A stretch of DNA of 64,000 nucleotides. Source: Psychrobacter submarinus (GTDB lineage: Bacteria > Pseudomonadota > Gammaproteobacteria > Pseudomonadales > Moraxellaceae). The DNA lies in assembly GCF_904846685.1 (NCBI RefSeq), contig NZ_CAJHBQ010000001.1:372001-436000 (forward strand), in the 5' to 3' direction. Shown one piece after another: positions 43,554 to 45,564 of this stretch (position 1 is the stretch's first letter; each line of letters opens with the position of its first letter). A program made the position numbers and the translations under genes. The notes beneath the pieces are model-generated. The model searched no databases. It saw only the letters and a program-made list of their open reading frames with translations, and was not told the origin of the DNA.

Positions 43554-43877
43554 ATGACCTTTATCGTTGCAGATAACTGCATCCTTTGTAAGCATACGGA
43601 CTGTGTAGAAGTCTGCCCAGTGGACTGCTTCTATGAAGGACCGAACTTCTTAGTCATTGACCCAGACGAGTGTATCGACTGTGCCCTTTGTGAGCCTGAA
43701 TGTCCGGCCAATGCCATCTTCTCAGAAGACGAAGTGCCTAAAGGACAAGAGATATTTATTGAGCTCAATGCCGAGCTTGCTCAAAAGTGGCCAAATATCA
43801 CTGAGATGAAGCCAGCCATGCCAGAAGCCGAAAAGTGGGATGGCGTCGAAGGTAAGATTCAGTATTTAGAGAAGTAG
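43554..43877 (+). CDS. fdxA: 7Fe ferredoxin, first tandem copy
   Basis: This 107-residue FdxA-type ferredoxin binds one 3Fe-4S and one 4Fe-4S cluster. Cysteines at 9, 12, 17, 21 and 25 in [17 protein letters not shown], and a second group [12 protein letters not shown], fit the family. The remainder is the usual C-terminal helix. It lies 89 bases after mutS, a conserved neighbourhood. The next gene is an almost identical copy. It carries electrons for unidentified partners in the cytoplasm. Confidence 0.97.
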
Positions 43878-43918: not shown

Positions 43919-44242
43919 ATGACCTTTATCGTGACCGATAACTGCATTCTTTGTAAATACACCGACTGTGTAGAAGTCTGCCCAGTGGACTGCTTCTATG
44001 AAGGACCGAACTTCTTAGTCATTGACCCAGACGAGTGTATCGACTGTGCCCTTTGTGAGCCTGAATGTCCGGCCAATGCCATCTTCTCAGAAGACGAAGT
44101 GCCAAAAGGACAAGAGATATTTATTGAGCTCAATGCCGAGCTTGCTCAAAAGTGGCCAAATATCACTGAGATGAAGCCAGCCATGCCAGAAGCCGAAAAG
44201 TGGGATGGCGTCGAAGGTAAGATTCAGTATTTAGAAAAGTGA
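43919..44242 (+). CDS. fdxA: 7Fe ferredoxin, second tandem copy
   Basis: The product differs from the first copy at only two residues (Ala6 to Thr and His14 to Tyr). Nearly all nucleotide differences lie in the first 60 or so bases of the gene; the rest is almost identical, with a synonymous change near 44103 and one next to the stop. The 41-base spacer between the copies contains AGGTAGTTCGCT, similar to AGGTAGCCCTCT before the first copy. A tandem duplication with recent gene conversion would explain this. Both copies keep every cluster ligand and should be functional. Confidence 0.96.
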
Positions 44243-44272
44243 TGTCGCTATAAACAAAATCTTTATACATTA

Positions 44273-44301
44273 GGCCGTAGCTTTTGCTGCGGTCTTTTTT
44301 T
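44273..44301 (+). terminator. Rho-independent terminator after the ferredoxin genes
   Basis: GGCCGTAGC pairs with GCTGCGGTC (two G-U pairs) around TTTT, followed by T7. Confidence 0.85.
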
Positions 44302-44416
44302 ATCCAACGTTGCCGTAAAACCACCCACTTCAGGGGGTGGATATAAGGCGACATATACTGTCGTGAGTAGTACTTAAAGGGTTGTAAGTTGAAATTAACC
44401 TCGCCATACTAAAGGT

Positions 44417-45520
44417 ATGAAAACCCTCAAGCTACGCATCAAAGACAAACACGTAAACCAGCTAAACAAAATAGCTGGGAGTGTTAACTATGCGTGGAAC
44501 TATGTTAATGCGTTAAGTTTTGAGCATCTAAAGCGAACAGGTAAATTCTTTAGTGCCTACGACCTAAACGAATACACCAAAGGCAGTGGCGAACTATTAG
44601 GCTTACACTCACAAACTCTGCAAGCCATAAACGAAACTCATACCAAATCTCGTAAGCAGTTTAAAAAAGCCAAACTAAATTGGCGAACCAACCGACCCGA
44701 TGCCAAGCGAAAAAGTTTAGGTTGGATTCCTTTTAAAAAGTCAGCAATCAAACATCTGCACACCAGACAAACGGGAAACAAAGCACTTAAATCAACCATA
44801 CAGCTATCGCTCTCTAAGGGTCAAAAGCTCATCATAGATGTCTTTGATAGCTACAACCTAAGCCTGTATCAAATCAACACGCTTGAGATAGTGCAAGACA
44901 GCCGTAATCGTTGGTATGCCTGTATTACCGTCAAAGATTTTCCTAGACAAGTAAGTGGGATGGGCAGCGTTGGTATTGACTTAGGCTTAAAGGAATCTGC
45001 TACCACATCAAACGGTGACAAGCTGACAACCAAACAAACGCAAAAGTGGGCTGAAAGGCTTGCAATAGCTCAACGAGCGAAAAACAAACAGCGTGTCAAA
45101 GCAATACACGCCAAAATCAAAAATTCAAGGTTAGATGCAATTCACAAATTCACCACCAAGCTTGTTAAAGACAATGCTTTGATTGTGGTTGGTGATGTTA
45201 AATCACGCTCATTCACAAGTAAGAAAACCAACCTAGCTAAATCAACATACGATGCAGGATGGTTTGAACTCAAAAGACAACTGGAATATAAATGCAAGTA
45301 TGCAGGTTGTCAGCTTGAGATAGTAAATGAGAGATACACTACCCAAACCTGCTCGTGCTGTGGCGATATGTCCAGTAGTCCGAAAGGTAGAGCAGGTCTT
45401 GGAATCAGAGGATGGAGGTGTGCTGAGTGTGGCACATGGCATGATAGAGATATCAATGCCGCTAAGAACATCCTTGCGGTCGGGCTTGACCGTCTTGCAG
45501 AAGGAATCCCCTCACTTTAG
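44417..45520 (+). CDS. tnpB: TnpB, RNA-guided nuclease of an IS200/IS605-type element
   Basis: TnpB proteins are omega-RNA-guided DNA nucleases related to Cas12. The 367 residues have the N-terminal OrfB_HTH region, RuvC-I GSVGIDLGLKES (Asp 188), a zinc ribbon CSCCG...CAECG, and RuvC-III HDRDINAAKNI (Asp 345). The RuvC-II position reads VVGDVKSRS (257-265), so the usual Glu is absent. Glu 305 in VNERYTTQTCS could replace it, as in TnpB groups with a rearranged active site. The stop codon lies inside the right-end hairpin, so the mRNA 3' end and the omega-RNA overlap. Confidence 0.93.
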   Translation: MKTLKLRIKDKHVNQLNKIAGSVNYAWNYVNALSFEHLKRTGKFFSAYDLNEYTKGSGELLGLHSQTLQAINETHTKSRKQFKKAKLNWRTNRPDAKRKSLGWIPFKKSAIKHLHTRQTGNKALKSTIQLSLSKGQKLIIDVFDSYNLSLYQINTLEIVQDSRNRWYACITVKDFPRQVSGMGSVGIDLGLKESATTSNGDKLTTKQTQKWAERLAIAQRAKNKQRVKAIHAKIKNSRLDAIHKFTTKLVKDNALIVVGDVKSRSFTSKKTNLAKSTYDAGWFELKRQLEYKCKYAGCQLEIVNERYTTQTCSCCGDMSSSPKGRAGLGIRGWRCAECGTWHDRDINAAKNILAVGLDRLAEGIPSL

Positions 45521-45536
45521 GGAGGGGAGGAAGTCA
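45400..45536 (+). ncRNA. Probable omega-RNA (reRNA) scaffold end of the TnpB element
   Basis: In related elements the guide RNA begins within the 3' part of tnpB and ends at the right end; the following host bases act as guide. Here the terminal hairpin 45508-45527 and the GAAGTCAA end at 45536 fit that pattern, which would make the guide start near 45537. The 5' boundary given is arbitrary. The call is by analogy with the family. Confidence 0.5.
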
Positions 45537-45564
45537 AGCCGTAAGTCATTTAATTGAGTGGTAT

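Follow-up and report, generated by a model that had tools for sequence, protein, structure and literature searches.

The 64,000-nt stretch of the Psychrobacter submarinus genome analyzed here (hereafter, the window) contains an IS200/IS605-type element with a tnpB gene and no tnpA gene. The encoded TnpB has no glutamate at the canonical RuvC-II place, and comparison with related sequences indicated that Glu305, located shortly before the zinc ribbon, is very likely its catalytic glutamate. We consider it highly probable that the locus is a tnpA-less IS200/IS605-type element encoding a TnpB of the E-alt D-hydrophobic-G class with the triad D188/E305/D345, which would act by RNA-guided cutting and promote retention of the element. 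In this mechanism, TnpB would use D188, E305, and D345 as a RuvC triad, with E305 participating in metal binding, and the element's right end together with flanking DNA would supply the guide RNA. The complex would then cut a copy of the empty site that lies next to TTTAT, and repair from the element-bearing copy would restore the element; such a retention effect has been proposed for ISDra2 (PMC8612924).

The combination of E-alt with a RuvC-I motif of the form D-hydrophobic-G has already been published (Yoon et al., 2023; PMC10711439), and the TnpB of the window is probably, as far as its sequence tells, a regular enzyme belonging to a branch already described. A TnpB suspected to be dead thus appears to be a clear example of a relocated-glutamate site in a proteobacterial IS200/IS605-type family; the ends of the element are known exactly, a TAM is inferred, and an empty target exists in nature.

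Ends and insertion site of the element

The limits of the element were determined by comparison with an empty site in G023, a genome of the same genus. This genome matched the right flank of the element with 93% identity over 563 bases and lacked the present tnpB family (threshold E ≤ 1e-60). In G023, the flank ending at 44303 abuts the flank beginning at 45538, 119 of the 120 bases around the junction are identical, and no target duplication accompanies the insertion. Because the flanks abut exactly, the element was assigned to 44304–45537, inserted after TTTAT, with the predicted guide running from 45538 (Table 1). The first-pass annotation had described a stand-alone TnpB element at 44305–45560 with a guide starting near 45537. 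The element is indeed there and stands alone, with no tnpA beside tnpB; its true limits are those given by the empty site, and the proposed guide start was correct to within one base.

Table 1. Features of the element and its flanks in window coordinates.
Feature	Position	Strand	Size or motif	Basis
Whole element, IS200/IS605 type without tnpA	44304..45537	+	1234 bp	Empty site in G023 (L154)
Left target/inferred TAM	44299..44303	+	TTTAT	Sequence; TTTAT in insertion sites of relatives
Subterminal hairpin of left end	44321..44340	+	CCACCC...GGGTGG	Sequence; similar left ends in relatives
tnpB	44417..45520	+	367 aa	Family models; dN/dS
RuvC-I Asp188 codon	44978..44980	+	D-L-G motif (IDLGL)	79/79 distinct intact relatives
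Gly259 codon, canonical RuvC-II Glu place	45191..45193	+		Gly in 79/79
Glu305 codon, alternative RuvC-II Glu	45329..45331	+	Six residues before Cys312	79/79
Zinc ribbon	45350..45430	+	C312-C315 ... C335-C338	Sequence
Region examined for the inferred omega/reRNA scaffold, overlapping the tnpB 3′ end	45388..45537	+	150 nt	Conserved structure
RuvC-III Asp345 codon	45449..45451	+	DRDINA	79/79
Terminal hairpin of right end	45507..45528	+		Fold
Predicted guide, first ~16–20 nt of right flank	45538..45557	+		Empty-site boundary; IS200/605 analogy

Among the relatives, 58 distinct insertion sites were compared, and 50 of them had TTTAT. For this count, 79 of 111 copies with a left-end anchor were used (32 copies were left out), and removal of flank duplicates reduced the 79 to 58; the anchor-to-boundary offset of 11 bases was set from the empty site of the window copy. 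The element thus inserts in the manner of IS200/IS605, 3′ of a short motif and with no duplication of the target. A TTTAT motif has also been reported for solo tnpB elements of S. islandicus (PMC10640517). The ends, the ORF, and the right-end region were all found again in many relatives, and this recurrence was far beyond chance.

Two further observations concern the surroundings of the insertions. A terminator-like hairpin followed by a T run lay just upstream of 8 of the 58 insertion sites, including that of the window copy (44272–44303), whereas the background frequency among the TTTAT sites of the window was 7 of 351 (Fisher p = 3e-4); when only TTTTAT sites were considered, the counts were 7 of 34 and 5 of 121, respectively. 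Avoidance of genes may explain these upstream hairpins. Directly to the left of the element, a ferredoxin gene is present as a tandem duplicate (43554–43877 and 43919–44242). The copies are identical at 312 of 324 bases with an offset of 365 bases, and both match one single stretch in G023.

Active-site motifs and conservation of the alternative glutamate

The TnpB scored 250.3 bits against the curated family model NF040570 (guided_TnpB; cut-off 100) and matched the Pfam families PF07282 and PF01385. Reading of the residues bore out the motifs of the first-pass annotation, which had listed D188, D345, E305, and a RuvC-II stretch, VVGDVKS, without the usual Glu. VVGDVKS starts at residue 257 and thereby supplies G259 and D260, and NERYTTQ starts at residue 304 and supplies E305. 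In a phmmer alignment to ISDra2 TnpB (8bf8/8h1j), G259 stood, as judged by eye, opposite the Glu of the RuvC-II motif.

Conservation was evaluated in relatives of the window tnpB. The initial 115 loci included 112 with a tblastn match, 111 with a frame, 100 intact, and 79 distinct sequences; the 11 framed loci left out had internal stops or a length of <350, and distinct sequences were counted because loci from genomes and from named contigs overlap. D188, G259, E305, and D345 were constant in all 79 distinct intact relatives. Residue 260 was Asp in 58 of them and Lys in the remaining 21. D260 of VVGDVKS is acidic and adjoins the canonical Glu place, and could on these grounds be regarded as the RuvC-II acid; its replacement by Lys in more than a few relatives, as counted above, ruled out this assignment, to which we attach practically no probability.

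A wider sample of TnpBs was assembled from class and phylum searches and from viral contigs (family profile, E ≤ 1e-15; ORFs ≥250 aa). The 45 ORF hits, 44 of which were distinct, together with four earlier sequences gave 48 rows including two repeats, that is, 46 distinct TnpBs. The Glu was located only at the canonical place in 30 of them and only at the alternative place in 16; in this sample, chosen by likeness and not exhaustive, none of the 46 had Glu at both places or at neither. One canonical sequence (L200) has Asn in the D345 column, and another (L130), cut at its stop, has no D345 column. The genome carrying the window element also encodes a canonical TnpB (L119; IEDLNVKGM). Simple loss of the glutamate should give sequences with Glu at neither place, and since none was seen in the sample, the residue appears to have been relocated rather than lost. 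The proposal of the first-pass annotation that E305 stands in for the RuvC-II Glu gained support from the invariance of E305, the either/or pattern, the alignment with a mimivirus Fanzor2, and a published clade, the latter two of which are described below. The either/or pattern also calls for care in scans where a TnpB is classed as dead on its RuvC-II motif alone.

Predicted structure and comparison with known systems

An AlphaFold2 model was obtained from an input alignment of 79 sequences picked from the family and wider sets (mean pLDDT 86.1; pTM 0.73). The predicted model of the protein is TnpB-like. The top rows of VIA-align 2, tied within 1 Z, were ISDra2 TnpB (8exa; Z 23.6, 4.0 Å over 302 residues; 8h1j; Z 23.5, 4.5 Å over 321) and the mimivirus Fanzor2 (9b0l; Z 22.7, 5.2 Å over 329), and the best Foldseek rows were TnpB and Cas12f. 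In the model, D188 is placed near the end of strand 183–189, G259 within strand 253–260, and E305 right after strand 299–304, while D345 opens helix 344–361. A phmmer alignment of residues 291–360 placed E305 on Glu467 of the mimivirus Fanzor2 9b0l.

Yoon et al. (2023; PMC10711439) described two Glu positions relative to the zinc finger, a canonical one approximately 50 residues ahead of it and an alternative one only six residues ahead, and reported that predicted models place the alternative Glu at a distinct yet consistent location. According to the same paper, sequences with the alternative Glu form two clades, one with D-hydrophobic-G and the other, comprising Fanzors and pro-Fanzors, with DPG. 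The window TnpB shares with the D-hydrophobic-G clade the RuvC-I motif D-L-G (D188-L189-G190), the Glu that precedes the first zinc Cys by six residues, and the lack of Glu at the canonical place. The spacing of its zinc CxxC pairs is 19 residues, not the 12–18 of the E-alt search pattern, which is not given as a defining trait; the Glu spacing fits the pattern. The window TnpB therefore probably fits the published E-alt D-hydrophobic-G class, as read from its motifs. In the portions of the literature searched, we found no activity measurement for an E-alt IS200/605 TnpB.

The comparison with ISDra2 (8exa/8h1j; PMC8612924) revealed a fold common to almost the entire chain, an insertion that follows a short motif and duplicates nothing, and an RNA, predicted in the case of the window element, from the right end and flank. 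ISDra2 differs in that its TnpB has the canonical Glu (E278), its motif is TTGAT rather than TTTAT, and it possesses tnpA. The mimivirus Fanzor2 shares with the window TnpB the fold and the alternative Glu aligned with E305, whereas the Fanzor2/pro-Fanzor branch is characterized by DPG and its pro-Fanzors are linked to IS607. An IS607/Fanzor origin of the window element was ruled out by its D-L-G motif in place of DPG and by the Y1 tnpA of some relatives. In SpuFz1, D383, E541, and D606 together with two magnesium ions coordinate the putative scissile phosphate (PMC11423790).

Right-end RNA and guide

The guide of IS200/605 TnpBs starts with the right flanking base (PMC10711439), and the reRNA of ISDra2 includes ~16 nt of the flank (PMC8612924). 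Of 72 distinct right ends in this family, 46 were aligned over their final 150 nt. The consensus structure comprised 25 pairs, with 95.7% of cells paired and eight pairs changed on both sides. None of 500 shuffles reached these values in paired cells, two-sided changes, or covariation score, and 5 of 500 did so in further pair types; slid versions of the structure had 37–54% of cells paired. As a single alignment served both to derive the structure and to evaluate it, and the region is mostly protein-coding, the covariation is support rather than proof. The single strand 45418–45537 folded at z −2.42, and the sequence downstream of early ORF stops (e.g., in L024) was still conserved.

The only Rfam match was HgcC, with 21.9 bits against a gathering score of 50 (E 0.035), and nothing in the whole window reached an Rfam gathering score. 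The HgcC RNAs of T. kodakarensis differ in origin, some being transcribed inside transposase genes and others elsewhere (PMC4247193); the weak match is therefore only suggestive.

Transposase genes

Of 102 copies for which ≥450 nt of upstream sequence was available, five had a divergent Y1 tnpA (L009, L080, L074, L034, and L083), that of L083 being in two pieces. The Y1 (HUH) tnpA expected of the family is thus found in relatives and is absent from the window copy. In G006, tnpA adjoins a tnpB that is 92% identical to the window tnpB. Simple loss of tnpA from the G006 copy was ruled out as the origin of the left end of the window element, as clean matching is confined to the first 37 nt. In the genome of the window, the only Y1-family hit was a weak one (E 1.4e-8; a frame of 181 aa), and the IS605-type TnpA of G006 had no match at E ≤ 1; with no matching tnpA, the usual retention cycle cannot be running there. 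The empty-site genome G023 has a TnpA that is 47% identical to the G006 TnpA.

Alternative explanations

The first-pass annotation had raised the alternative that the protein is catalytically dead and acts as an RNA-guided binder. Known proteins of this kind are the TldRs, nuclease-dead TnpB-like repressors (PMC13418256), with which the window locus shares the missing tnpA beside the gene; the missing Glu at the canonical place points in the same direction. However, the loss of RuvC catalytic acids that marks TldRs was not seen in the window TnpB: all three acids of the triad were invariant in the distinct intact relatives, and every distinct TnpB sampled had a Glu at one of the two places. 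The relatives moreover occupied 58 distinct insertion sites and were not located beside one partner gene. We also searched the genome for a second target using a 17-base pattern consisting of TTAT and 13 guide bases. With up to three mismatches, 13 places were found, compared with 11 for a reversed control. The 13 included the element's own site, preceded by TCAA; the best other place had two mismatches and TCAT instead of TTAT, and five TTAT-flanked places had three mismatches each within the 13 guide bases, so that no TTAT-flanked place with fewer than three mismatches was present in the genome in this search. With a complete triad and no close TAM-flanked second target found by this pattern, the dead-binder alternative was not supported and is improbable.

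Similarly improbable is a leftover copy that retains an intact frame and has lost its function in this genome. The unmatched G006 TnpA would be consistent with such a copy, as would a sister copy in the same genome (L003; G000:C3:302455–303543), which looks inactivated because a TGA replaces its first zinc cysteine. Against this stand the intact frame and ends of the window copy and the dN/dS values of its tnpB, which were 0.10–0.12 in comparison with three relatives of 92–93% identity. Among the nine relatives tried, seven gave values of 0.08–0.14, with dS >1 in four of these seven, and dS was saturated in the remaining two. An intact nuclease with the triad D188/E305/D345, as set out at the beginning, accounts for these data with far higher probability than either alternative.

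Selection in a genome with many copies

One genome, G045, contained many diverged tnpB copies, of which 18 (L218–L235) were retrieved. The frame was free of stops in 15 of these, and the alternative Glu motif was kept in all 18. The left-end anchor was present in 12 copies and missing from six; the spacer before tnpB in the anchored copies was 112–113 nt, which is too short for a tnpA, and these 12 full elements were 88–96% identical to one another. The median dN/dS was 0.12 over 120 pairs of sixteen same-length coding sequences. Neither a family search at E ≤ 1e-5 nor a search with the G006 TnpA at E ≤ 1 detected a tnpA in G045, G047, or G011, and genomes of this kind in the wider family, without detected tnpA, are useful for asking why a solo tnpB stays intact. 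The open frames, low dN/dS, and lack of a detected tnpA in G045 form the basis of a tentative and rather doubtful proposal that tnpA-less E-alt TnpBs persist as active, selected nucleases well after the genome has lost its transposase, kept by homing cuts of incoming empty alleles. RNA-guided cutting would then act with recombination at empty alleles acquired by gene exchange, in place of retention during transposition. Part of the low dN/dS in G045 could be explained by shared ancestry before the copies arrived.

Distribution of the family

The 80 best named loci were selected from 239 related stretches, and 77 of the 80 were titled Psychrobacter or Moraxella. Two copies with 78–79% identity (L076 and L080) were found in the record BMPS01, titled Streptomyces cinereus, which is possibly a mislabelled or contaminated assembly. 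Eight relatives with 51–80% identity (L201–L208) were located on IMG/VR viral contigs, and the family may accordingly ride on prophages.
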